DNA of 33,992 bases, from the NCBI GenBank assembly GCA_024103415.1, contig JAGFIR010000134.1, forward strand, positions 1 through 33,992, in the 5' to 3' direction. Position numbers and translations under genes: made by a program. The notes beneath the pieces are model-generated. The model saw only the letters and a list, made by a program, of their open reading frames with translations, was not told the DNA's origin and searched no databases. Of the stretch, positions 3,199 to 28,814 are shown piece by piece; the stretch's first letter is position 1; each line of letters opens with the position of its first letter. This DNA is from Acidimicrobiales bacterium (lineage in GTDB: Bacteria; Actinomycetota; Acidimicrobiia; Spongiisociales; ZC4RG35).

Positions 3199-5262
3199 CT
3201 AGCCACCCATCACCTGCCGTATGCCGGCCACGACCCTGTCGACGTCGACCAGGGCGTGCTTCTCGATGGCGAACTGGGGCCAGGGCACGTCGAAGCCCGT
3301 GACCCTGACGATCGGCGCCTCCAGGTCGTACATCGCCTCCTCGGCGACGACCGCGGCGACTTCGGCTGCGACACCGGCGGTTCCCTGCGGCTCCTGGACG
3401 AGCAGCAGCCGGCCCGTCTTCGCCACGGACGCCAGGACCGTCTCCCGATCCCAGGGGAACAGGGTGCGGAGATCGATGACGTCGGCAGAGACGCCCTCCC
3501 TCTCCACGGCCTGGAGCGCCACCGGCACCATGCCGCCATAGGTGACGACGGTGAGGTCGTTGCCTTCCTTGCGAACCCGGGCGCGGCCGATAGGGAGCTT
3601 GTAGCTCTCCACCGGAACCTGCTCCCGCCCGGCCCGATACAGCACCTTGGGCTCGAGGAACATCACGGGGTCCTCACCCTGGAGCGCGGCAGTGAGGAGT
3701 CCCTTGGCGTCGGTCGGAGTCGAGGGGCAGACGACGACGAGACCGGGGGCGTGGACGAAGTAGGCCTCCGGCGAGTCGCAGTGGTGCTCGTGGGCCCCGA
3801 TCCCCGCGCCGTTCGGCATGCGGACGACGACGGGCACGGTGGCGTTCCCCCGTGTGCGATAGCGGAAGCGGCCCAGGTGGCTGACGATCTGGTCGAAGGC
3901 GGGGTACACGAAGCCCTCGAACTGGATCTCCGCGATCGGACGGGCCCCGCCGAGGGCCATGCCGATGGCGGTGCCCACGATTCCGGACTCGTTGAGCGGC
4001 GTGTCGATGACCCGGTCGGGCCCGAACCGGTCGAGCAGCCCCTCGGTGATCCGGAACACCCCACCGGCCCGGGCGACGTCCTCGCCGAGGACGACCGTGG
4101 AAGGATCGCTCTCCATCGCCAGGTGGAGGGCCTGGTTGATCGCTTCCGCCATGTTCATGGCCTCCGTCGGCCCTTCGGGTAGACGGTCTCTCCCCACCAC
4201 CCAGATCTCGTCGGGGGAGAAGGGGGTCTCGGGCTCGCCGTGGGCGCGCTGCATCCGGTGGAGTTGCTCGACGACGTGCTCGGGGATCTTGTGGAAGCCG
4301 TGGCGGACGGCGTCGTCGCGATCGGGAAGGGGGCGGGCTTCGATCTCGGCGATGGCCCCGTTCACCGCGTCGGTGACCTCCATCGCCACCTTCTCGACCT
4401 CCCGCTCGTCGAGGAGGTCGCGGTTCTCGAGGAACCGGCGCATCCGGTCGATCGGATCCTTCTTCCGCCACTCGGCGACCTCGTCGTCGGTGCGGTACAG
4501 GGTGGGGTCGTCGGCCGTGGCATGGGGCCCGTAGCGATAGGTCATCGCCTCGATGAGGGTGGGGCCCTCCCCGCGGCGGGCCCGCTCCACCGCCTCCCGG
4601 GTGGCCAGGTAGACGGCGACGGGGTCCATCCCGTCGACCCGCACCCCGGGGAATCCGTAGGCGTCCGCCTTCTGGGCGATGGTCTCCGACGCAGTCTGCT
4701 TGTGATACGGCACGGAGATCGCGTAGAGGTTGTTGGCGCAGACGAAGACGGTCGGGGTCTTCCACACCCCGGCGAAGTTCATGCCGGAGTGGAAGTCGAT
4801 TTCGGAAGTGGCGCCGTCACCGAAGTAGACGGCCGTGACGGTGTCGTCCCCGAGCAAGCGCCGGTAGTACGAGTATCCGACCGCGTGCGGCAGCTGGCTG
4901 GCGATCGGAACCGTGACGATGCCGGTCCGGTACTTCTCGACGTCCCAACCCGAGTTGGGGAGGCCCCTCCAGTAGGCGAGGAGGACGTCGATGGGCAGAC
5001 CGTGGGTGATCTGGACCCCGTGCTCGCGGTAGGAGGGGAACACGAAATCGTCCGGGCGGAGGGCCATGGCCGAGCCGATCTGGACCGCTTCGTGACCCTC
5101 GAGCATGGCGTAGGTGCCGATGCGCCCCTGACGTTGCAGTGCGAGCATCCGGCGGTCCAACTCCCGTGCCAGGACCATGTTCCGGTACATGGCCTGGTAG
5201 ATGCCCGGGTCGAGGCCCGGGTCGTCTCCCACGAGGTTGCCCTGCGGGTCGATGATCTGCAT
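3199..5262 (-). CDS. Fused E1 alpha-beta 2-oxoacid dehydrogenase (pyruvate or branched-chain type)
   Basis: Thiamine-diphosphate E1 component carrying out oxidative decarboxylation of pyruvate or a branched-chain 2-oxoacid and passing the acyl group to lipoyl E2. Both subunits are in one 687-aa chain. Residues 1 to about 330 are E1 alpha, with the ThDP motif GDG 148-150 to NN 177-178 and a phosphate-loop-type His247 (RYGPHATADDP). A linker of about 40 residues follows. About 370-687 is E1 beta, with GEDV near 393 and the HEHHCDSPEAY loop. Usually E1 alpha and E1 beta are separate genes of about 360 and 325 aa. No E2 or E3 gene is nearby, so the substrate class cannot be settled. ATG 5262 lies 93 bases from the divergent aminotransferase, with a possible TACTCT -10 at 5287-5282. 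Confidence 0.93.
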   Translation of the reverse strand: MQIIDPQGNLVGDDPGLDPGIYQAMYRNMVLARELDRRMLALQRQGRIGTYAMLEGHEAVQIGSAMALRPDDFVFPSYREHGVQITHGLPIDVLLAYWRGLPNSGWDVEKYRTGIVTVPIASQLPHAVGYSYYRRLLGDDTVTAVYFGDGATSEIDFHSGMNFAGVWKTPTVFVCANNLYAISVPYHKQTASETIAQKADAYGFPGVRVDGMDPVAVYLATREAVERARRGEGPTLIEAMTYRYGPHATADDPTLYRTDDEVAEWRKKDPIDRMRRFLENRDLLDEREVEKVAMEVTDAVNGAIAEIEARPLPDRDDAVRHGFHKIPEHVVEQLHRMQRAHGEPETPFSPDEIWVVGRDRLPEGPTEAMNMAEAINQALHLAMESDPSTVVLGEDVARAGGVFRITEGLLDRFGPDRVIDTPLNESGIVGTAIGMALGGARPIAEIQFEGFVYPAFDQIVSHLGRFRYRTRGNATVPVVVRMPNGAGIGAHEHHCDSPEAYFVHAPGLVVVCPSTPTDAKGLLTAALQGEDPVMFLEPKVLYRAGREQVPVESYKLPIGRARVRKEGNDLTVVTYGGMVPVALQAVEREGVSADVIDLRTLFPWDRETVLASVAKTGRLLLVQEPQGTAGVAAEVAAVVAEEAMYDLEAPIVRVTGFDVPWPQFAIEKHALVDVDRVVAGIRQVMGG

Positions 5263-12302: not shown

Positions 12303-12617
12303 GTGATCCATCCCTCCCGCCTGCTCGACGCCGGCACCGATCGGATCTGCTTCGACACGAGGGGCGACCGCGTGGTCGACGATCTCCCACCCGGCCCTGC
12401 GGTTATGTCGGTTGTGGCGGTCACGGACGCACTCAAAGTGGTCAGCGAGGGGTTCGTCGTCGACTCCGTGGACCGGGAGAGCGTGGCCCGGGTGACCGCG
12501 TTCGCCGTGGAGCGCACGGTTCTCGAGCGAATCGGTGACGGCGCGCTCTCCCCGGAAGAGCTGATCGAGGCCGTTCGGGCGCAGGGTGTCGACTGGGTGA
12601 TCGTCGATCGGGTCTAG
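12303..12617 (+). CDS. Small hypothetical protein
   Basis: 104 aa, no family recognised. Codon third positions are strongly G/C, as in real genes here. The sequence suggests a small alpha/beta domain: a strand-like IHPSRLLDAG start, then GPAVMSVVAVTDALKVV, a Val-rich segment and a helical C-terminus with LSPEELIEAVRAQGVDWVIVD. Acidic, no membrane segment, no cysteine cluster. GTG 12303 is supported by a TACCTT -10 six bases ahead and by the absence of a ribosome site. It is divergent from the IspD-family gene and shares its CTAG stop with the convergent HAD phosphatase. Confidence 0.65.
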   Translation: MIHPSRLLDAGTDRICFDTRGDRVVDDLPPGPAVMSVVAVTDALKVVSEGFVVDSVDRESVARVTAFAVERTVLERIGDGALSPEELIEAVRAQGVDWVIVDRV

Positions 12618-13390
12618 CTCTTGCGACCCTTGAGGGCCCAATAGGCGAGGATCGCCGCCACACCCGTCGCAACCGCGGCACCGGCGGGCACTGCCGCCCC
12701 GGAGAGGCGGTCGCGCATCGTGACCGCCGACTCGAACCGCCTCACCTCCCAGCCGCGCTCTTCGGCGATCGCGGCCAGCGCCGAGTCGGGGTTGACCACC
12801 ACCGGATGCCCGACGGCCTCGAGCATCGGAAGGTCGGTCGCCGAGTCGGAGTACGCATAGCTCGCTTCGAGGTCGATTCCCTCCCGCTCGGCCAGCTCCA
12901 CCATCGCCTCCGCCTTGTGCGGGCCGTATGCGTAGAACTCGATGTTCCCTGTGTACCGGCCTTCCTCGTCGACCTCGGACCGGGTGGCGATCACCTCGTC
13001 GATGCCCAGGTACGAGCAGAGCGGTCGGACGATCTCCTCGGGGCTCGCGGAGACCACCACCACCCGATGCCCCTTCTTCCGGTGGTCGTCGACGAGAGCC
13101 AGTGCCTCCGAGTAGACGAGCGGGGTCACGACCTCGTCGACCGTCTCGGCCACCAGGTCCATGACCTCGTCGCGGCTCCAGCCCTGGACGAGGTTGGCGA
13201 GCTCCTCCTTGACGCGCTCCAGCTGGTCCTCGCCGGCCCCAAAGGCGCGGTAATAGGCCTGGGCGATGCCGGCCTTGGCCAGGGTGACACCGCCCAACAT
13301 CCCGGCCCGGAACATCGGGCGGGTGAAGGCGAGGGTCGACGAGCGGGCGATGATCGTCTTGTCGAGGTCGAAGAACGCTCCGACGGCCAT
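12614..13390 (-). CDS. HAD-IB family phosphatase with C-terminal membrane helix
   Basis: SerB-like haloacid dehalogenase hydrolase, 258 aa. Motif I is FFDLDKT (6-12; nucleophile Asp8, acid Asp10), motif II VVVSASP (111-117), Lys159 lies in GPHKAEAM, and motif IV is SDSATDLPML (181-190). A helical cap lies between motifs I and II. After the catalytic domain comes a hydrophobic helix (about 232-252) and the basic end LKGRKS, suggesting membrane attachment. The natural substrate of the group is not settled. In mycobacteria a HAD-IB gene stands next to the tad/ssd locus just as here, 62 bases away and divergent. ATG 13390 has a TAACTT -10 six bases ahead. Confidence 0.9.
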   Translation of the reverse strand: MAVGAFFDLDKTIIARSSTLAFTRPMFRAGMLGGVTLAKAGIAQAYYRAFGAGEDQLERVKEELANLVQGWSRDEVMDLVAETVDEVVTPLVYSEALALVDDHRKKGHRVVVVSASPEEIVRPLCSYLGIDEVIATRSEVDEEGRYTGNIEFYAYGPHKAEAMVELAEREGIDLEASYAYSDSATDLPMLEAVGHPVVVNPDSALAAIAEERGWEVRRFESAVTMRDRLSGAAVPAGAAVATGVAAILAYWALKGRKS

Positions 13391-13452: not shown

Positions 13453-14004
13453 ATGGGGAGGGAGAGGGGTCGTGTCCTGGCGGTCGCCGCCACCGATCCG
13501 GTGATGTCCGTCGTCGCGCCGGTGGCCCTGGCGGCTTCCGCCGGGACGGCTTTGGTCGTCGACATGGGCGAGACGCTGGGGCGGGCCGGGGCGCGCACCC
13601 TCGAGGACATCGCAGCCGACGGACCGACCCGGGCCGAGGCCGTCCCCGGGCGCAAGGGCGTGGCCGTCATCCGATCCGGCCGACTCCGCACCGAGGATGC
13701 GGTGGAGCTGGTGGGGAGGCTCGCACTGGCCTGGCCGGCGGTGGTCATCCGGACGGGCCCCGGCGTCTGGCCGGGGCCGATGGTGCCGATCGAGGCCCTC
13801 TTTCCCGGGCTGCTCTGTCCCCGCGTGTCGCATCCAGCGGTCTGGCAACGGGTGCGGGGTGGCCCTTCGGCCGCCCCGGGCCCGGGGCCGGTGCTTCCGC
13901 CGGCAGGGGCCGCCAACGTTCGTCGCATCCTCGCCGGCGGGATGCCGCTTCCCGGCCGCTGGCTGCGGTCCTGGCGAAGGGTCTGGGGGCTGCCGTGGGC
14001 GTGA
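13453..14004 (+). CDS. Degenerate Ssd/CpaE-like protein of the tad locus
   Basis: 183 aa at the place where actinobacterial tad loci encode Ssd/CpaE, a MinD-like ATPase that positions the pilus or septum machinery. The fold order can be followed: strand RVLAVAATD (7-15), strand TALVVDMGE (32-40) like the switch region, GVAVIRSGR (69-77) and AVVIRTG (95-101). The P-loop is not recognisable: where GGxGKT/S is expected the sequence reads TDPVMSVVAP. The C-terminal 60 residues are Pro/Gly/Arg-rich. Nucleotide hydrolysis is therefore unlikely, and it may act as a scaffold. The assignment rests mainly on position and a weak strand pattern. Its stop overlaps the TadA start (GTGA). Confidence 0.7.
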   Translation: MGRERGRVLAVAATDPVMSVVAPVALAASAGTALVVDMGETLGRAGARTLEDIAADGPTRAEAVPGRKGVAVIRSGRLRTEDAVELVGRLALAWPAVVIRTGPGVWPGPMVPIEALFPGLLCPRVSHPAVWQRVRGGPSAAPGPGPVLPPAGAANVRRILAGGMPLPGRWLRSWRRVWGLPWA

Positions 14005-15038
14005 TCGATCGGGTGGCACGCGCCGTGGCCATGTCAGACGTCGGCCTGGACTCCGCCTCGGTGTCGGCGGAGGCGGCCCGGATCCTGGCCGCGGAGTCCC
14101 CGTGGAGGGTCTCCGAATCGGTGGCCCCGGTGGTGGCCGGTGTGATCGGGATGGGGCCGATCCAGACCCTCCTCGACGATCCGGAGGTGACCGACGTCCT
14201 GGTCAACGGTCCCGACGAGATCTGGGTCGACCGTGGCGCCGGTCTGATCCGCGTCGCGGAGCGTTTCCCGTCCCCCGGCGCCATCGTGTCCATGGTGGAG
14301 CGGGTGATCGCCCCGCTCGGGCTCCGCATCGACCGGACGATGCCGATGGTCGACGCCCGTCTGCCCGACGGCAGCCGTCTCCACGCCGTCCTCCCGCCGG
14401 CAGCGGTGGACTCGCCTCTGGTGGCGGTTCGCCGGTTCACCCAGAGAGTGGGGAGCCTCGACGACCTGGTGACAACCGGGACCGTGACCCGGGAGCAGGC
14501 GGATCGGCTGGGCTCGGCCGTGGATCAGCGACAGACCATCCTCGTGTCCGGTGGCACCGGTGCCGGGAAGACGACGCTCCTCAACCTCCTCGCGGCACGC
14601 ATCCCGCCGGACGAACGCGTTGTCACCATCGAGGACGCCGCCGAGCTGTCACTGCCCGGTCACGTCGTCCGTCTCGAGGCACGTCCCGCCAATGCAGAAG
14701 GGGTGGGTGAGATCACCATCCGTGAGCTGGTCCGGTCGGCTCTCCGTCTCCGTCCGGATCGTCTCATCGTGGGCGAGGTCCGGGGTGCCGAGGCGCTCGA
14801 TCTGGTCTCCGCCCTCAACACCGGCCATCGCGGCTCGATGACCACGGTGCACGCCAACTCGCCTCAGGAGGCGATGTGGCGGCTCCACACGCTGGCGCTC
14901 TCCTCGGGTGTCGCGTCCGAGATCGCGGTGAGACGGCAACTGCAGGCGGCGGTGGACCTCATCGTGCAGATCGAGCGGACCCGCACCGGACGTTTCGTGC
15001 GCTCGATCACGAGCCGCGAAGACCTGGGCGACTGGTGA
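14001..15038 (+). CDS. tadA: TadA/CpaF secretion ATPase
   Basis: Hexameric ATPase that powers Flp/Tad pilus assembly at the inner face of the membrane. 345 aa, CpaF type: N-terminal domain with TDVLVNGPDEIWVDR (64-78) and RIDRTMPMVDARLPDGSRLH (a family signature, 109-128), then Walker A GGTGAGKTT (184-192), an Asp box TIEDAAEL, Walker B LIVGEVRG (255-262) and the His box NTGHRGSMTTVHANS. The frame is open upstream to 13266, but GTG 14001 is chosen because it overlaps the preceding stop and gives a normal CpaF N-terminus. The next gene starts on its stop (TGATG). Confidence 0.95.
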   Translation: MIDRVARAVAMSDVGLDSASVSAEAARILAAESPWRVSESVAPVVAGVIGMGPIQTLLDDPEVTDVLVNGPDEIWVDRGAGLIRVAERFPSPGAIVSMVERVIAPLGLRIDRTMPMVDARLPDGSRLHAVLPPAAVDSPLVAVRRFTQRVGSLDDLVTTGTVTREQADRLGSAVDQRQTILVSGGTGAGKTTLLNLLAARIPPDERVVTIEDAAELSLPGHVVRLEARPANAEGVGEITIRELVRSALRLRPDRLIVGEVRGAEALDLVSALNTGHRGSMTTVHANSPQEAMWRLHTLALSSGVASEIAVRRQLQAAVDLIVQIERTRTGRFVRSITSREDLGDW

Positions 15039-15676
15039 TGGAACTGGTATTGCTCGCCGTGGCGCTGGCGATGGGGGTCGATCTGCGAAGGCTGGCGCTT
15101 CTCGCTCTCGCCCTGTTCTTCCCGTGGGGGTTCGCCGTGCTCTTGACCGTGCTGGCCCGGGTGGCCCGTCGTGGCGCCGACGGCCGCTCCACCCGGTTCC
15201 TCGAAGGGGTGGCCGCGGAGCTCCGATCCGGGTCTTCGCTACGCCAGGCGCTGTCGGCGTCTGCCACGGCCGTCGGCGAGCCGGGGCTGGCGTCCGACGC
15301 GATGGAGTCGTCCTATTTGGAGATGGGTGAGCGGGCGGGGGCAGTGTTCCCGGAGGTCGGGAGGGAGATCTCGCTGACGATCGCCTCGGCTGCGGGCTCG
15401 GGAACCGCAACCGCCCGGCTCTTCGACGAGCTGGCATCGCTTGCCATGGCCCGGGACGAGGTCCGGCGGGAGGTGAGGGTGGCCGCGGCGCCGGGTCGGG
15501 TCGCAGCCGGCTTGTTCCTGGCGGCGCCCATCCTCTACCTGGGACACCGGTGGACATCAGGCGATCTGGCCGCCCTCCTCTCCGCTCCGGGTCAGCGTGT
15601 GGCTGCGGTGGCCGGCCTCGCCCTCTTCCTCACGGGTCTCGTCGGTGTCGCCATCGTGCTCTGGAGGGCGAGATGA
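15038..15676 (+). CDS. tadB: TadB-like pilus platform protein
   Basis: Inner-membrane platform protein (type II secretion F domain), 212 aa. Two closely spaced N-terminal hydrophobic segments (about 1-42) are followed by a cytoplasmic helical F domain with LRSGSSLRQALSASA (61-75) and a Gly-rich SAAGSGTATARLFDELA region, then two C-terminal membrane helices (about 155-210). It is short compared with proteobacterial TadB (about 300 aa) but fits the trimmed actinobacterial form. ATG 15038 overlaps the TadA stop by one base; its own stop overlaps the TadC start by four. Confidence 0.85.
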   Translation: MELVLLAVALAMGVDLRRLALLALALFFPWGFAVLLTVLARVARRGADGRSTRFLEGVAAELRSGSSLRQALSASATAVGEPGLASDAMESSYLEMGERAGAVFPEVGREISLTIASAAGSGTATARLFDELASLAMARDEVRREVRVAAAPGRVAAGLFLAAPILYLGHRWTSGDLAALLSAPGQRVAAVAGLALFLTGLVGVAIVLWRAR

Positions 15677-16164
15677 CGATCGTCGTCGCGCTCTTCTGTG
15701 CCGGGATCCTCCTCAGGCCACGCCGGTCGAGGACGGAGCCCGTGCCGCTCCGGCTGGTCCTCATCGTCCTGCTCGTCGAGATCGGGTCGGGCCGGTCGGT
15801 TCTGGCGGCGCTTCAGGCGGCCGCAGCCAGATTGCCCGATCATCGCGAGCTCTCCAGAGTGGCGCGTCTGGCGGCCGTGGCCGGTCTCTCGACCGCGGTT
15901 GCGGCCTCGCCGAAGGAGCTCCGGCCGATGCTCGGCCAGCTCGCCCGCGCCCAGCGCTCCGGCGCCTCATTGACCCACACGGTGCGTCGTCTCATCGAGG
16001 ACGACCTCGCCGGGGAGCGCACGGCACGTCTCGCCAGGGCTCGCTCGCTCCCCACGCGTCTGATGGTCCCGGTAACCCTCCTCATGCTGCCGGGCCTCGT
16101 CCTCCTCCTGTATGCCCCGTCGCTGATCGCCGTCTTCGAAGAGCTCGTCGGAGGGCTCCCGTGA
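15673..16164 (+). CDS. tadC: TadC-like pilus platform protein
   Basis: 163-aa second platform protein, expected to pair with TadB and TadA. It has an N-terminal membrane segment (4-15), a second one around 27-36, an F-domain helix bundle with EIGSGRSVLAALQAAAARL and AQRSGASLTHTVRRLIEDDL, and a C-terminal membrane hairpin (about 132-155). It is shorter than classical TadC (250 aa or more), as in mycobacterial tad loci. ATG 15673 from the 4-base ATGA overlap. A 58-base gap with a hairpin separates it from the pilin. Confidence 0.8.
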   Translation: MTIVVALFCAGILLRPRRSRTEPVPLRLVLIVLLVEIGSGRSVLAALQAAAARLPDHRELSRVARLAAVAGLSTAVAASPKELRPMLGQLARAQRSGASLTHTVRRLIEDDLAGERTARLARARSLPTRLMVPVTLLMLPGLVLLLYAPSLIAVFEELVGGLP

Positions 16165-16186
16165 GACTCCCGCACTTCTCCCCGCA

Positions 16187-16203
16187 GCCGGTCGGTCACC
16201 GGC
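16187..16203 (+). promoter_or_regulatory. Hairpin upstream of the Flp pilin
   Basis: 6-bp stem GCCGGT / ACCGGC with a 5-base loop, between tadC and the pilin, directly before the pilin ribosome site AAGGAAGG (16204-16211). It could stabilise a processed pilin mRNA or act as a partial terminator; the role is inference. Confidence 0.35.
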
Positions 16204-16222
16204 AAGGAAGGAATGTCGAGAA

Positions 16223-16420
16223 ATGACACGAATCTGGAACCGGCTTCACGCCGCCCTGTCCTCGGAGAAGGGCCAGGGCACCGTGGAGTACTTCCTCGTG
16301 ATCCTGGCGGCGACCGCTCTGGCGATCATCGCCCTCCGCTGGCTGCAGCAGGGCAGCGGCGGTGGTCTTCTCGGGAACCTCTTCGGCCGGATCATCCAAT
16401 GGGTGATGGGCCGGTTCTGA
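16223..16420 (+). CDS. flp: Flp-type (class IVb) major pilin
   Basis: 65-aa prepilin. A short basic leader (MTRIWNRLHAALSSEKG) is followed by a likely prepilin-peptidase site after Gly17. The mature start QGTVEYF has Glu at +5 and Tyr at +6, the Flp hallmark, and leads into the hydrophobic helix FLVILAATALAIIAL that packs in the fibre. The C-terminus has a Gly-rich turn and a second amphipathic segment. No prepilin peptidase gene is in this window. ATG 16223 is chosen with a ribosome site at 16204-16211; the ATG at 16213 is in another frame. Confidence 0.92.
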   Translation: MTRIWNRLHAALSSEKGQGTVEYFLVILAATALAIIALRWLQQGSGGGLLGNLFGRIIQWVMGRF

Positions 16421-16782
16421 GATCGGAGCGGGGGAGCCTCACGGTGGAGCTGTTCCTGGTGATCCCGGTCGTGGTGCTGGTGCTCGTTGGCGGGCTCCAA
16501 TTGGTTGGCGTCGCCCGGTCCCGTCTCGAACTGGCCGGTGCCGCCCGTGATGGGGCCCGGGTGGCGGCGACCAGCCCGGATCCGCGACGAGCGGTCGAGG
16601 CGGCGTTGGCCGCGCTTCCTCCGGAGATCCGCCCGCGGGCCCGGGTCACGGTGACCCGGCCGTCGCTGCCGGGTCGTCAGGCCCGGGTGGTGGTCACGGT
16701 CAGGCACCAACTCGGCACGCCGTTCCCGCCCGGGGTCGGGTTCGACCTGTCCGCCGCGGCCGCAATGACGGTGGAGAGATGA
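16399..16782 (+). CDS. tadE: TadE-like pseudopilin 1
   Basis: 127-aa minor pilin. The start ERGSLTVELFLVIPVVVLVL holds a likely peptidase site after Gly12 with Glu at +5, then one membrane helix and an exported domain with VARSRLELAGAARDGARVAA, typical of TadE. The only sensible in-frame start is ATG 16399, which lies inside the pilin gene, so the two genes overlap by 22 bases in different frames and are probably translationally coupled. TadE-type proteins assist pilus assembly at the membrane. Confidence 0.85.
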   Translation: MGDGPVLRSERGSLTVELFLVIPVVVLVLVGGLQLVGVARSRLELAGAARDGARVAATSPDPRRAVEAALAALPPEIRPRARVTVTRPSLPGRQARVVVTVRHQLGTPFPPGVGFDLSAAAAMTVER

Positions 16783-17162
16783 TCGAAAGGGGGTCGGCCA
16801 CGATCCTGGCCATGGCCGTGGCCGGCCTCCTGGCTGCTCTGACGGTCGGGGCCACGGCAGTCGCCATGGCCCTGACGGCGCGGGAGAAGGCCAACACGGC
16901 TGCCGAGTCGGCCGCCCTCGCCGCGGCGGTGGCGACCTATCCGGGCACCGGTCGTCCATCGCCGGTCGCAGAGGCGCGACGGAACGCCGCGGCCAACGGC
17001 GCCTCATTGGCTTCGTGTGTCTGCGCGGTCGACGGCTCCGTCGCGCCGAGGACCGTGACAGTGAGGACGGTGGTCGAGATCGTCGTGCCGATCTTCGGTC
17101 GACTGCGCATCGCCGGCGCCGCCAGGGCCGAGTTCGACCCTGCGGCCTGGCTGGGATTCTGA
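16779..17162 (+). CDS. TadE-like protein 2 (Rv3654c-type)
   Basis: 127 aa, overlapping the previous stop by four bases. It begins MIERGSATILAMAVAGLL: a very short leader, a membrane helix (about 8-33), then AREKANTAAESAALAAA, which resembles the TadE/TadG-like secretion-neighbourhood proteins at the end of actinobacterial tad loci. It lacks the +5 Glu of true pilins. The exported domain has two close cysteines (CVC, about 80-82). It is the last gene of the operon; PolX follows after 22 bases with its own promoter. Confidence 0.8.
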   Translation: MIERGSATILAMAVAGLLAALTVGATAVAMALTAREKANTAAESAALAAAVATYPGTGRPSPVAEARRNAAANGASLASCVCAVDGSVAPRTVTVRTVVEIVVPIFGRLRIAGAARAEFDPAAWLGF

Positions 17163-23232: not shown

Positions 23233-24558
23233 TTGGAGACGCCCAGGCCCGCAACCGATCCGGCCCACGAGACCTACATCCTCGACACGTGCGTCCTCCT
23301 CGCCGACCCCCGCGCCCCTCTCCGATTCGAGGAGCACGACGTGGTCCTGCCGCTCGTGGTCGTGGAAGAGCTCGACCGGATGAAGGGGCGGATGGACGAC
23401 GTCGGGGCCAACGCCCGGTCCGCGATCCGGCTGCTCGAGGAGCTAGGTGCGTCCCGGCCCGGCGGGCTGCGTGACCCGGTGCGGCTGGCGGGCGGCGGGT
23501 CGCTGCGGATCGAGCTGAACGGTGTCACCTCCGACCGCCTGCCGTCGGTGCTCGACCCCCACACACCCGACCATCGCATCCTCGCCACGTGTCTCAACCT
23601 CGGGGGAGTGCTCGTCACCAAGGACGCATCGCTCCGCATCAAGGGCGCTCAGCTCGGGGTCGCCGTCCAGGACTACCGGGCGGACACCGCGCCGACCCAT
23701 CAGGTCCGGCAGGGAGTGGTCGAGCACCAGGTCGACTCCGACACCATCGACCGGCTGTTCGAGGAGGGGAAGATCACCCTCGAGGGCGTCGAGTCGGTCG
23801 TCAACGAGTTCGTGGTGCTTCGCTCGGGCATCTCCCGCTCCGCGCTGGCCAGGGTGCTGCAGACGACACCGGAGACGGTGGTGGAGCGGGTGCCCACCCA
23901 CGTCCGCGCATTCGGTGTCGAGCCGAAGAACCTGGCACAGACCGTGGCACTGCATCAGCTCCTCGACCCCTCCATCCCGGCCGTCTCCCTCATGGGCATG
24001 GCGGGGACCGGCAAGACGTTCCTCGCCCTGGCTGCCGCCCTGGAGCAGGTGCTGGAACAGAGGCGCTACCGGAGGGTCTCGGTCTACCGCCCGCTGGTCG
24101 CCGTGGGCCGACAGGAGGTGGGCTACCTGCCCGGTGACCTGGGGGAGAAGCTGGCCCCGTGGATGGCGGCGGTGCACGACAATCTCTACGCCCTCTTCTC
24201 CGACGCGGGTCCGGACGGCGCCCGTGACGCGGTGGAGGAGCTGATCGAGCGTGGCGAGTTGGAGATGGCCGCAGTCACGTATCTGCGCGGCCGGTCGATC
24301 ACCGGCGAGATCGTGATCATCGACGAGGCGCAGAACCTGGAGCTCTCCACCCTGAAGGTGATCCTGACCCGCATGTCACAGGACTCCAAGGTGGTCTTCT
24401 GTGGGGATCTGTCCCAGGTCGACAACCCCTACATCTCGCCGTACGGCGGCATGGCGGCGCTGATCGAGAAGCTCCGGGGGTCGCCACTGTTCGCCCACGT
24501 CACCTTGGAGAGGTCGGTGCGATCACCGCTCGCCGAGATGGCGGCGACCATTCTCTAA
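23233..24558 (+). CDS. PIN-PhoH fusion ATPase (PhoH2 type)
   Basis: 441 aa. An N-terminal PIN RNase domain (about 13-150) begins YILDTCVLLADP with Asp18, has VVEELDRMKG and the acidic HRILATC and VTKDASLRIKA segments. A PhoH ATPase domain follows (about 230-441), with Walker A MGMAGTGKTF (near 254), Walker B IVIIDEAQNL (near 362) and sensor-like VVFCGDLSQVDNP. PhoH2 proteins are sequence-specific RNA helicases coupled to RNA cleavage, per studies of the family. No separate antitoxin-like gene lies upstream. The TTG start is the only one that keeps the whole PIN strand; the ribosome site is weak. The stop overlaps the topA stop in CTAA. Confidence 0.92.
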   Translation: METPRPATDPAHETYILDTCVLLADPRAPLRFEEHDVVLPLVVVEELDRMKGRMDDVGANARSAIRLLEELGASRPGGLRDPVRLAGGGSLRIELNGVTSDRLPSVLDPHTPDHRILATCLNLGGVLVTKDASLRIKGAQLGVAVQDYRADTAPTHQVRQGVVEHQVDSDTIDRLFEEGKITLEGVESVVNEFVVLRSGISRSALARVLQTTPETVVERVPTHVRAFGVEPKNLAQTVALHQLLDPSIPAVSLMGMAGTGKTFLALAAALEQVLEQRRYRRVSVYRPLVAVGRQEVGYLPGDLGEKLAPWMAAVHDNLYALFSDAGPDGARDAVEELIERGELEMAAVTYLRGRSITGEIVIIDEAQNLELSTLKVILTRMSQDSKVVFCGDLSQVDNPYISPYGGMAALIEKLRGSPLFAHVTLERSVRSPLAEMAATIL

Positions 24559-27110
24559 CCGGAGGCGAGACGCTCGCGTCGGGCGGCGAGCAGCTCCAAC
24601 GCCCGGTCCAGCGTCATCTTGGACGGGTCGTCGCCTTTGCGCAGCGAAGCGTTGACCTCGCCGTCGGTGACATAGGGGCCGAAGCGGCCGTTTCGCACCG
24701 TGATCTTCTTCCCGGACCCGGGATCCTCACCCAGGTCGGCCAGCACCGAGGTCCTGGCCTGGCCGCGGCGTCTCGGTGGTTCGGCGAGGAGTTGAAGGGC
24801 CTCTTCGACGGTGATGGTGAACAGTTGATCCTCGCTCTCCAAGCTGCGGCGGTCCTCCCCGCGCTGGATGTACGGCCCGTAGCGGCCGTTGAGGGCCAGG
24901 ATCTCGACGCCGTCCTCGTCGTGGCCGATGACCCGGGGCAGCGAGAGCAGCCGGAGTGCGTCGTCGAGGCCCATCTCGTCGAGGTCCCAGCCCCGGAGGA
25001 GCGAAGCGCGCTTCGGCTTCTCCTTGGCGCCCTCTTCCTGCTCGCCGAGCTGGACGTAGGGGCCGAAGCGGCCGGTCATGCCGTAGACGGTGAGCCCGGA
25101 CTCGGGGTCGGTGCCGAAGATCTTCGCCCCGGCGTTCTGGGTCTCTATCAACTCGACCGCCTTCTCGACGGTGAGCTCGTCGGGTGGGAGGTCGTCGGGG
25201 ATGGAGGCCCGCTCCTCGCCGCGCTCCACATAGGGCCCGTATCGGCCAACGCGGGCGACCACTTCGTTGCCGTCGGCGTCCTTCCCGATGCTGATGGTCC
25301 CCACTTCGCGGGGGTCGATCTCGTCGAGGCGCCGGGCGATCGTCTCCCGCAGACCGTCGTCACCGAAGTAGAAGGACGAGAGCCAGGGGACCGACTCCTG
25401 CTCGCCGGCAGCGATGGAGTCGAGGTCGGCCTCCATGGCCGCGGTGAAGTCGTAGTCGACGAGCTGGGGGAAGTGGCGCTCCAGCAGCGTCACCACCGCG
25501 AAGGCGGTGAACGAAGGCACCAGGGCGGTGCCCTTCTTGAACACGTACCCCCGGTCCTGGATGGTGGTCATGATCGACGCATAGGTGGAGGGACGACCCA
25601 CGCCCAGCTCCTCCAGCCGCTGGACCAGAGACGCCTCGGTGTAGCGGGCCGGTGGCTTGGTGGTGTGCCCGGTGGGCTCGAGACGCTGCACCGCCAGGTC
25701 CACACCCTCCTCGAGGGGCGGCAGGACGCCTTCCTCGTCGTCTGCGTCCTCTTCGTCCCGCCCCTGGACGTACGCCGCGAGGAATCCCGGGAACGTGATG
25801 GTGCGACCCGAGGCGCCCCAGACCGTGTCCCGACCGTCGTCGGCGACCGCGCCGATGCGGGCGGTGACGGTGACCCCGACGGCGTCGGCCATCTGCGACG
25901 CCATCGTGCGACGCCAGATCAGGTCGTAGAGCTTGGCCTCGTCGGGCCCCACTTCGCGAGCCACCTGCTCGGGTGTCTTGAAGCTCTCTCCGGCCGGCCG
26001 GATCGCCTCGTGGGCCTCCTGGGCGCCCTTGACCTTGGAGGCGTAGCGACGCGGGCTGGGCGAGAGGTACTGCTCGCCGTAGATCTTGGCCACCTGGGAC
26101 CGCGCCGCCGCCACGGCGGTCTCGGACAGGTTCACCGAGTCGGTCCGCATGTAGGTGATGTATCCGTTCTCGTAGAGACGCTGGGCGACCGACATGGTCC
26201 GGCTCGACGAGAAGCGGAGCTTGCGGCCGGCCTCCTGCTGCAGGGTCGAGGTCCGGAACGGGGGCTGTGGGCTGCGCTTGTACGGCTTGGTGGTGACCGA
26301 TCGCACCTGGAAGGAGGCGTCGGCCAGGCCGGTGGCGAGGGCCTCGGCGGTGTCCCGGTCGAGGATGAGGACACCTTCTTTGGCCTTGCCCTGCTCGTCG
26401 AAGTCGCGGCCGGTCGCCACCCGGGCGTCGTCGACGCTGAGCAGGTTCGCCGTGAACGTCCGGTCCAGGTCGTCGGCCCGGGCGAACACACCTTCGATCC
26501 CCCAGTAGTCGGCGGGGACGAAGGCCATCCTCTCCCGTTCGCGCTCCACGACGATGCGGACGGCCACGCTCTGGACACGGCCGGCGGAGAGACGGGGCTG
26601 GACCTTCCGCCACAGGACGGGGGAGACCTCGTAGCCGTAGAGACGGTCGAGGATCCGCCGGGCCTCCTGGGCCTGGACGAGCCTCTCGTCGAGATCGCGC
26701 GGATTGGCGAAGGCCTCCTCGATCGCCGGCTTGGTGATCTCGTGGAAGACCATACGCCGCACCGGCACCTTCGGCTTGAGCACCTCCACGAGGTGCCATG
26801 CGATGGCCTCGCCCTCGCGGTCCTCGTCCGTGGCCAGGTAGAGGACGTCCGCTTCCTCGAGGGCCTTCTTCAGCTTCTTCACCTGCTGCGACCGGTCCTT
26901 GGGGACCACGTAGAGGGGTTTGAAGTCGTTCTCCACGTCCACGCCGAGCCGGGCCCACTCGCTGCCCTTGGCGCTGGCGGGGATCTCCGCCGCCGATCGG
27001 GGCAGGTCGCGTATGTGGCCCATCGACGACTCGACCACCGCGTTCTCGAGGAACGAGGAGATGGTTCTGGCCTTCGTGGGCGACTCGACTATGACGAGAG
27101 CTTTGGGCAT
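24555..27110 (-). CDS. topA: DNA topoisomerase I
   Basis: Type IA topoisomerase relaxing negative supercoils, 851 aa. The TOPRIM domain starts KALVIVESPTKA and has TDEDREGEAIAWHL. The active-site Tyr is about residue 320 in ITYMRTDS. LSAGRVQSVA and GVGRPSTYASI are core motifs. The C-terminus has no zinc fingers but four Topo-C-type repeats, each with a GRYGPY/GRFGPY core (ending RGEE, LGEQ, RGED and DGEV), as in actinobacterial TopA. The frame opens at 27149, but ATG 27110 (MPKALVIVES) is the natural start. Possible promoter TTGACA (27149-27144), 18 bases, TCAACT (27125-27120). It is divergent from tmk. Confidence 0.97.
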   Translation of the reverse strand: MPKALVIVESPTKARTISSFLENAVVESSMGHIRDLPRSAAEIPASAKGSEWARLGVDVENDFKPLYVVPKDRSQQVKKLKKALEEADVLYLATDEDREGEAIAWHLVEVLKPKVPVRRMVFHEITKPAIEEAFANPRDLDERLVQAQEARRILDRLYGYEVSPVLWRKVQPRLSAGRVQSVAVRIVVERERERMAFVPADYWGIEGVFARADDLDRTFTANLLSVDDARVATGRDFDEQGKAKEGVLILDRDTAEALATGLADASFQVRSVTTKPYKRSPQPPFRTSTLQQEAGRKLRFSSSRTMSVAQRLYENGYITYMRTDSVNLSETAVAAARSQVAKIYGEQYLSPSPRRYASKVKGAQEAHEAIRPAGESFKTPEQVAREVGPDEAKLYDLIWRRTMASQMADAVGVTVTARIGAVADDGRDTVWGASGRTITFPGFLAAYVQGRDEEDADDEEGVLPPLEEGVDLAVQRLEPTGHTTKPPARYTEASLVQRLEELGVGRPSTYASIMTTIQDRGYVFKKGTALVPSFTAFAVVTLLERHFPQLVDYDFTAAMEADLDSIAAGEQESVPWLSSFYFGDDGLRETIARRLDEIDPREVGTISIGKDADGNEVVARVGRYGPYVERGEERASIPDDLPPDELTVEKAVELIETQNAGAKIFGTDPESGLTVYGMTGRFGPYVQLGEQEEGAKEKPKRASLLRGWDLDEMGLDDALRLLSLPRVIGHDEDGVEILALNGRYGPYIQRGEDRRSLESEDQLFTITVEEALQLLAEPPRRRGQARTSVLADLGEDPGSGKKITVRNGRFGPYVTDGEVNASLRKGDDPSKMTLDRALELLAARRERLASG

Positions 27111-27119
27111 TGAGCTAAG

Positions 27120-27149
27120 AGTTGACCGGATGTTCCTACCTGATGTCAA
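27120..27149 (-). promoter_or_regulatory. topA: Putative topA promoter
   Basis: Minus strand: a perfect -35 TTGACA (27149-27144), 18-base spacer and weak -10 TCAACT (27125-27120), 9 bases before ATG 27110, giving a leader of only a few bases. Confidence 0.45.
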
Positions 27150-27176
27150 TACGGATGATGCGTCATCACCGATGGT

Positions 27177-27182
27177 TAGCGT
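27177..27182 (+). promoter_or_regulatory. Putative -10 (TAGCGT) of tmk-holB
   Basis: TANNNT hexamer ending 7 bases before GTG 27190 and excluding the longer frame starts that lie upstream of it. Confidence 0.5.
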
Positions 27183-27189
27183 GGCCGAT

Positions 27190-27783
27190 GTGAGCCGCTA
27201 CATCGCCCTAGAGGGTGTCGACGGCAGCGGGAAGAGCACCGTCGTCTCCGCCCTGGCCACCCGTCTTCGGGACGCCGGGGAGACCGTGGTCACGGTGCGC
27301 GAGCCGGGCGGGTCGCCGTTCGGGGAGGTGGTCCGAGGGCTGTTGCTGGACTCCGATCACCTCGACATCAAGGCAGAGGTGCTGTTGTTCGCCGCCCAAC
27401 GCGCCGTTCTCACCTCCGAGGTGGTCCGACCCGCGCTGGAGGGGGGGGAGTGGGTGATCAGCGACCGCACCTACTACTCGTCCCTCGCCTACCAGGGCCG
27501 GGCCAGAGGTGTGGGTATGGACTGGGTACGTGAGATCAACGAGTGGGCGGTGGATGGCGTCATCCCCGACCTCGTGGTGGTCCTCGATGTCGATCCCGAG
27601 GAAGGGCTGCGCCGCCAGCACCGTGAGGACCGCATCGGGCGCGAGGGCGTCGATTTCCAATCCGAGGTGCGGGCCGCCTATCTGGAACTGGCCGAGGCCG
27701 AGCCCGACAGGGTGCTCATCCTGAAAGGGTCGCTGGCGGTGGAGGAGATGGTGGACGCGATCCTGGAGAGGCTGGGCAGGTGA
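27190..27783 (+). CDS. tmk: Thymidylate kinase
   Basis: dTMP kinase, 197 aa, making dTDP from dTMP and ATP for DNA synthesis. P-loop LEGVDGSGKS (7-16), substrate motif REPGGSPFGE (33-42), SDRTYYSSLAYQG with the DR(Y/H/T) element, and LID region RRQHREDRIGRE. Length is near the family norm of about 205. The open frame extends to 26920, but GTG 27190 fits homology and the TAGCGT -10 seven bases ahead. Its stop overlaps the holB start (GTGA), a common actinobacterial pairing. Confidence 0.96.
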   Translation: MSRYIALEGVDGSGKSTVVSALATRLRDAGETVVTVREPGGSPFGEVVRGLLLDSDHLDIKAEVLLFAAQRAVLTSEVVRPALEGGEWVISDRTYYSSLAYQGRARGVGMDWVREINEWAVDGVIPDLVVVLDVDPEEGLRRQHREDRIGREGVDFQSEVRAAYLELAEAEPDRVLILKGSLAVEEMVDAILERLGR

Positions 27784-28814
27784 GCGGGCTGTTCGACGAC
27801 GTCATCGGTCACGAGCGTGTCGTCGAGCTCCTCGAGTCCGAGCTCGCGTCGCCTTCCCAGGCATATCTGTTCGTGGGCCCCTCATCGATCGGGAAGTCGA
27901 TGATGGCGGTCCGCTTCGCGGCCGGGTTGTTGGACCCACCAGAGGGCAGTGAGGAGGCGAGGGACCGCTCGATGCGACTCGCCCTGGCACAGTCTCACCC
28001 CGATCTCGTCGTGGTGGAGCCACAGGGGGTGGCCAGCATCGGTGTCGATCAGGCCCGCGAGGTGGTGCGCAAGGCGTCGATGGCCCCGGTCGAGGGCGCA
28101 CGGACCGTGTTCCTGATCCCCGAGGCGGGCACCCTGACGGAACAGGCGGCCAATGCCCTCCTCAAGACGTTGGAGGAGCCGGGGGCAACCGTCGTGTTCC
28201 TGCTCGTAGCGGAGTCGGAAGATCAGTTCCCGGCCACGATCGCGTCCCGCTGCCGTGTGGTGCGCATGGGGAGAGTGCCGGATGAGGTGTTGACGGAGGC
28301 CCTGGTGGCGCGGGGTCTCGAGCCGGCCCGGGCCGGGGGGCTCGCCGTAGTGTCGGCCGGCCGGCCCGGTCTGGCGCTTGCGCTGATGACCAGGCCGGAG
28401 GTGGCGAGCTTCAGGGAGTTCTGGTTGTCCATCCCGGCCAAGGTGACCGCCCGTCCCGGCGACGCCCAGCGTCTCGCCGGCCTGGTTCTGGAGGAGATCG
28501 CTCCGCTCGTCGACGACTCCGTGCCCGGCGGTCTGGACAAGGACGCCACCCAGAGGCACAAGCGTCGGATCGAGATGTCGCTGCTGGTGACCGGCCTGGA
28601 GATACTGGCGTCCTGGTACGCCGACGCGGCCTCCCTCCAGGTGGGCGGGCCGATCCGGAACACCGACGTCGACCTGAACCATTTCACGGACGTCTCGCCA
28701 CGCAAGGCCGTGCATGGGGCAGAGCTGGCGCTGGCGGCAGTGGTCGACATCCAGGCGAACCTGCGCCGGGAGCTCGTGCTCACCAACCTGTTCGCCGAGT
28801 TGGGAGCGGACTAG
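27780..28814 (+). CDS. holB: DNA polymerase III delta' subunit
   Basis: Clamp-loader subunit, 344 aa, part of the complex that loads the beta sliding clamp. AAA+ fold: VIGHERVVELL near the start, P-loop VGPSSIGKS (32-40), QSHPDLVVVEP, ANALLKTLEEPG and the SRC motif (156-158) that contributes to neighbouring ATP sites. The C-terminal collar domain follows. The zinc-binding cysteines that most delta' and DnaX proteins carry between the P-loop and HPD are absent (the segment PEGSEEARDRSM has none). It is the last gene before a converging tRNA gene. Confidence 0.93.
   Translation: MSGLFDDVIGHERVVELLESELASPSQAYLFVGPSSIGKSMMAVRFAAGLLDPPEGSEEARDRSMRLALAQSHPDLVVVEPQGVASIGVDQAREVVRKASMAPVEGARTVFLIPEAGTLTEQAANALLKTLEEPGATVVFLLVAESEDQFPATIASRCRVVRMGRVPDEVLTEALVARGLEPARAGGLAVVSAGRPGLALALMTRPEVASFREFWLSIPAKVTARPGDAQRLAGLVLEEIAPLVDDSVPGGLDKDATQRHKRRIEMSLLVTGLEILASWYADAASLQVGGPIRNTDVDLNHFTDVSPRKAVHGAELALAAVVDIQANLRRELVLTNLFAELGAD

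Follow-up and report, generated by a model that had tools for sequence, protein, structure and literature searches.

Can a Tad pilus be placed in the cell without an ATP-driven switch? The question is raised by a tad locus on a stretch of 33,992 nucleotides (the window, here meaning all of the DNA analysed: positions 1 to 33,992, forward strand, of contig JAGFIR010000134.1, assembly GCA_024103415.1) from an Acidimicrobiales bacterium that GTDB places in the order Spongiisociales, class Acidimicrobiia, phylum Actinomycetota. Proteins of the ParA/MinD type position cell structures through ATP-driven dimerisation, and TadZ is thought to do likewise for Tad pili; the importance of its weak ATPase activity is unsettled. 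The locus, which by gene order is of the Rv3661-Rv3654c type, is opened by an open reading frame (ORF, 13453-14004) for a 183-amino-acid (aa) protein that occupies the position of the TadZ/CpaE relative Ssd and has no P-loop. The series leading from CpaE through Ssd to this loop-deleted protein offers a natural way of asking how far TadZ function depends on nucleotide. Our analysis indicates that the protein is probably an order-specific, shortened pseudo-ATPase derived from TadZ/CpaE/Ssd, which would act as a nucleotide-independent scaffold for the motor TadA, a function that we infer from the evidence set out below.

A MinD-type predicted fold without the phosphate-binding loop

The original prediction described a 183-aa ORF carrying TDPVMSVVAP where a P-loop was to be expected, and this description was confirmed. 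The ORF begins with ATG, residues 14-23 read TDPVMSVVAP, and GC content by codon position follows a coding pattern (GC1 0.79, GC2 0.63, GC3 0.87). The deviant Walker A motif KGGxGK[ST] is absent from the window protein and from all 46 distinct members of its family. Three features of the protein are needed for what follows:

13453-14004, plus strand: P-loop-less protein at the Ssd/TadZ position, 183 aa; MinD/ParA-type predicted fold with the P-loop deleted
13471-13500, plus strand: strand b1 (residues 7-13), the two-residue turn T14-D15 and the start of helix a1 (from residue 16), in the AlphaFold2 model
13957-14001, plus strand: C-terminal Trp/Arg amphipathic motif RWLRSWRRVWGLPWA (residues 169-183); family consensus RWVRAWRxVWELPW

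AlphaFold2 models were built with 24 sequences, and all structural statements made here rest on such predictions. The model of the window protein reached a predicted local distance difference test score (pLDDT) of 91.5 and a predicted template modelling score (pTM) of 0.88, and that of a divergent family member a pLDDT of 92.1 and a pTM of 0.89. In the window model the secondary-structure elements follow the order b1-a1-b2-a-b3-a-b4-b5-b6-a-a. With only residues 14 and 15 between the end of b1 and the start of a1, the loop that holds the phosphates in MinD would be deleted, not merely mutated. The N-terminal domain of about 110 aa found in Ssd proteins of the TIGR03815 type is also missing, as b1 starts at residue 7.

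Foldseek searches of the Protein Data Bank (PDB) with the window model returned almost exclusively nucleoside triphosphatases of the SIMIBI/MinD class (MinD 4v02, TMq 0.59; FleN, 0.52), and those with the divergent member gave E-values from 1.2e-3 and TM scores of 0.66 for BcsQ, 0.63 for FlhG, 0.62 for FleN, 0.62 for MinD and 0.61 for Soj. In both searches MinD/ParA matches predominate and cover almost the full length of the model; a fold search of BFVD gave no significant match. The predicted domain fold and strand order are thereby those of the MinD/ParA (SIMIBI) type, at TM scores of 0.52-0.66. Structure prediction with comparison to MinD had been proposed as a check that might have returned a fold unrelated to MinD/ParA, and the fold that it did return is of this type.

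Residues conserved throughout the family include D37, P65, W94, R100, a PGPGPVLP loop (142-149) and a WP-x-VV-x-R stretch. At the C-terminus W170, W178 and W182 are invariant or nearly so. The three tryptophans of the motif recur with a spacing of four, which suggests an amphipathic helix, and its mean hydrophobic moment is 0.79, as against 0.44 (standard deviation 0.21) in shuffled motifs. The Trp/Arg segment is therefore, judged by sequence, a candidate membrane- or partner-binding helix.

Distribution, descent and the Walker A lysine

The P-loop-less protein and Ssd have complementary distributions, and this is the strongest argument that the former is the counterpart of the latter by descent. 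A profile of the Ssd type found elsewhere in the class (KGGxG[TVMA][ST]) matched proteins in 76 genomes, all of other orders, and in none of the window's order. The P-loop-less family was found in 104 of 110 genomes and 53 of 54 genera of that order (survey at a completeness of at least 80%), and in 38 of 41 genomes when the window's own genome and 40 relatives were considered; every one of the 47 positives among 198 sampled genomes of the class came from the order. As the genomes of the order are mostly draft metagenome-assembled genomes, absences among them are soft. This reciprocal pattern implies that the two proteins exclude each other. Among 297 genomes of the phylum no convincing family member was detected beyond the order. 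Four weak matches at this level (E 0.003-0.009) were rejected, being one MinD/FlhG-type P-loop protein, two CBS-domain proteins and one short shadow frame.

The gene is also firmly tied to its locus: tadA lies directly downstream in 46 of 46 distinct members, and the divergent HAD gene is adjacent in 33 of the 40 members with enough flanking sequence. Four genomes of the order without the family gene, namely G001 and G002 of the window's genus, G039 and G194, lack Ssd-type tadA as well and carry only cpaF-like or divergent tadA copies, from which it follows that the whole locus is missing from these draft assemblies. The ratio of nonsynonymous to synonymous substitution rates (dN/dS) is 0.10-0.20 in pairs of relatives with 73-93% identity. 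Order-wide presence, linkage to tadA and low dN/dS together argue for a selected component of the locus and not a wreck. Nor was an intact P-loop, which the original prediction had proposed to look for in related genomes, present at the Ssd position in close relatives (46 distinct members).

Comparison of profiles provides a second line of evidence. Against a profile built from 12 Ssd-type proteins of actinobacteria, the family profile scored 39-40, with P 2.2e-5 to 2.9e-5 (39.7 at P about 2.5e-5). Scores of the controls were 14.1 for the reversed profile, 19.2 for the highest of 100 column shuffles (best P among them, 0.05) and at most 15.3 for profiles of TadA, TadB, TadC, TadE and HAD. Direct searches of Pfam, NCBIfam and PDB sequences, made with the single protein and with profiles of 20 and 24 members, gave nothing useful, and TIGR03815 (cut-off 154.45 bits) was matched neither by the window protein nor by 20 relatives. 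The suggested hidden Markov model search of the protein was thus uninformative against the family databases, and informative only as a profile-profile link to actinobacterial Ssd. By eye, the C-terminal third can plausibly be aligned with the closing strand and helices of Ssd (GPVLP ... LLxGRxP with PVLARVP ... AVDAGVLP); this homology was set aside, since it found no support when that part was compared by profile on its own.

Several results weigh against the preferred reading. The Foldseek E-values of the window protein are weak (best 0.019), the family matches a CpaE profile modestly (P 0.0016 to 0.0035), and its similarity to Ssd proteins of other Acidimicrobiia, the taxonomically nearest set, does not reach significance (P 0.011 to 0.29). 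The C-terminal 55 residues taken alone gave no significant profile match, and the C-terminal helix, modelled at high confidence, could pack on the domain instead of on the membrane. Some of these points are what would be expected if an unrelated protein had replaced Ssd at this position, its likeness to MinD being a convergence of alpha/beta folds: sequence and profile searches of Pfam, NCBIfam and PDB are without a match, similarity to the nearest Ssd set falls short of significance, and the C-terminal third is specific to the family. We consider this replacement unlikely, because operon position and neighbours are those of Ssd, because the family and class-type Ssd are mutually exclusive, because the profile link to actinobacterial Ssd lies far above all controls, and because MinD/ParA matches of almost full length predominate in both fold searches. 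The two possibilities first raised, that the localisation ATPase had decayed into a scaffold or that a different protein had taken its place, are in this way separated in favour of the former by the predicted fold and the Ssd profile link, except that decay of a single copy does not hold: the change is order-wide and under selection.

A GGxGKS/T motif, which had been expected at the Ssd position, is in any case not the norm in Actinomycetota, where the Walker A lysine is gone from 70/70 and 9/9 Ssd proteins in the two sets considered. In all 70 Ssd-position proteins from other orders of the class, KGGxG is present with its signature lysine, and the next residue, where the Walker lysine would stand, is T in 62, V in 6, M in 1 and A in 1. 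Both lysines are gone from all nine TIGR03815 members that exceed the cut-off, whose motif is GGAGA(S/T) or closely similar to it. Rv3660c has been stated to have a Walker A motif (PMC10482377), which may refer to the glycine-rich stretch. MinD-like ATPase may be the wrong label for the Ssd proteins of actinobacteria. According to a published description (PMC6668835), TadZ has an atypical Walker A motif, binds ATP but shows little ATPase activity, and acts as a hub for the recruitment of further Tad components.

Among CpaE proteins of separate cpaE-cpaF loci outside the order, 8 of 9 examined carry KGGxGK(S/T) or TGGCGKT. A CpaE with a long N-terminal region at L104 (G115:C73, 1412-2158) reads KGGSGTT, so that CpaE proteins have, on at least one occasion, lost the Walker lysine as well. 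On sequence evidence, the window's order is the endpoint of a graded loss: KGGxGK in CpaE, the lysine lost in Ssd, and the loop deleted here. The origin was probably stepwise, with the Walker A lysine lost first across the Ssd proteins of Actinomycetota and the loop deleted later in the window's order.

A possible mode of action and its alternatives

How might such a protein work? Conventional ATP binding would not be expected of it without a P-loop, nor would ATP-driven dimerisation or release. The protein may instead be a constitutive adaptor, co-produced with TadA, that brings the TadA motor to the membrane platform or positions it there. The overlap of its stop with the start of tadA (4 nt, tadA beginning with GTG) is consistent with a partner made in stoichiometric amounts with the motor. 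In MinD, a C-terminal amphipathic helix binds the membrane upon ATP-driven dimerisation. A stronger, constitutive Trp/Arg helix may replace this membrane-binding step of ATP-driven MinD-type dimers, which is the least certain step of the proposal. The Tad pilus of the window's order therefore probably works without a TadZ-type ATP switch. That the TadZ/Ssd component is, throughout the order, a nucleotide-free scaffold of MinD fold with its own amphipathic Trp/Arg anchor is a broader claim, for and against which we see the chances as evenly divided. If it is true, TadZ-family proteins could dispense with their ATP cycle in placing a Tad pilus, and the cycle would have been lost stepwise across Actinomycetota. 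Neither the window protein nor any ParA/MinD relative lacking a P-loop in a Tad locus was mentioned in the literature searched, which covered few subscription papers.

Another reading is that a remodelled site still accommodates a nucleotide or some other ligand, which would make the protein a switch of a new type. D37, P65, W94, R100 and the PGPGPVLP loop (142-149) are conserved at non-classical places and could form a new pocket; we nevertheless regard this as rather improbable, as the phosphate-binding loop is missing from the models and no member has a P-loop there. In a further scheme, an intact-P-loop CpaE encoded beside cpaB would serve both pilus systems in trans, with the small protein as a dedicated adaptor to it. 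The window's genome does encode a CpaE of 390 aa with an intact KGGSGKT (L155, G000:C164, 111-1283), which adjoins CpaB near a contig end, and CpaE-CpaF loci are present in other genomes of the order too; we give this scheme little credence. That the protein is a functionless, decaying remnant kept through translational coupling to tadA, as its shortening, the lost P-loop and the stop-start overlap might suggest, is highly improbable in view of the low dN/dS, the residues invariant across the order and its retention in nearly all genomes, and a pseudogene was rejected on dN/dS and distribution. The preferred reading thus remains that of an Ssd-derived scaffold for TadA.

The tad locus and its known counterparts

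The order originally read from the window, a divergent HAD-IB gene, the Ssd position, TadA, short TadB and TadC, Flp and two TadE-like proteins, is borne out by family matches, in the case of TadB by position. The other genes of the locus are the following:

12614-13390, minus strand: HAD-IB family hydrolase, divergent (Rv3661-type); TIGR01490, E 1.5e-57, 195 bits, over cut-off
14001-15038, plus strand: TadA/CpaF pilus ATPase; TIGR03819, E 1.6e-101; P-loop GGTGAGKTT intact
15038-15676, plus strand: inner-membrane platform protein at the TadB position, 212 aa; assigned by position (T2SSF E 0.015, sub-threshold) and resembling the same-position gene of related loci
15673-16164, plus strand: TadC-type platform protein, 163 aa; T2SSF, E 8.5e-8
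16223-16420, plus strand: Flp/DUF4244 prepilin, 65 aa; PF14029, E 9.5e-7; PF04021 class III signal peptide
16399-16782, plus strand: TadE-type minor pilin; NF041390 TadE_Rv3655c, 43.8 bits, cut-off 40
16779-17162, plus strand: second TadE/G-like protein (Rv3654c type); TIGR03816, E 1.2e-12, 47.9 bits, cut-off 50.95; PF13400, E 4e-4

Neighbouring genes mostly overlap by a few base pairs. A TadA with an intact P-loop, two single-domain platform proteins, Flp and TadE-like proteins occur in the order that defines the Rv3661-Rv3654c type. Note also that TIGR03819 gave 0 matches over its cut-off in the 198 genomes of the class and that TIGR03816 falls slightly short of its cut-off in the window; these shortfalls imply that current curated models under-call the tad loci of Acidimicrobiia. 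About 7.4 kb downstream of the locus lie topA, tmk and holB (24555-28814). The proximity of topA and holB to tad presumably resembles the mycobacterial Rv3644c-Rv3660c region, which would favour orthology of the locus. Elsewhere in the window, an ORF of 687 aa (3199-5262, minus strand) is an apparent fusion of the alpha and beta subunits of pyruvate dehydrogenase E1, with TIGR03181 matching residues 2-335 and beta-subunit models residues 363-685.

Of the known systems, actinobacterial Ssd (TIGR03815, Rv3660c type) shares with the window protein the place before tadA, the divergent HAD-IB gene, a MinD-type core and the lack of the Walker A lysine. The window protein is shorter (about 180 aa, as compared with about 350), has neither the N-terminal domain of about 110 aa nor the glycine-rich loop, adds the Trp/Arg motif at its C-terminus and does not match TIGR03815. 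The Ssd-position proteins of other Acidimicrobiia orders are likewise single-domain proteins without a receiver domain, encoded directly before tadA, but they keep the loop and the signature lysine, measure 210-250 aa and do not end in a Trp motif. TadZ/CpaE of other Tad pili (for example E. rectale TadZ, PDB 3fkq) is similarly a Tad component of the ParA/MinD superfamily, proposed as localisation factor and hub, and differs in having an atypical ATP-binding P-loop and a receiver-like N-terminal domain, neither of which is found in the window protein. Finally, the SIMIBI ATPases BcsQ, FleN/FlhG and MinD resemble it in predicted fold (TM 0.52-0.66) and, unlike it, are all P-loop nucleotide binders.

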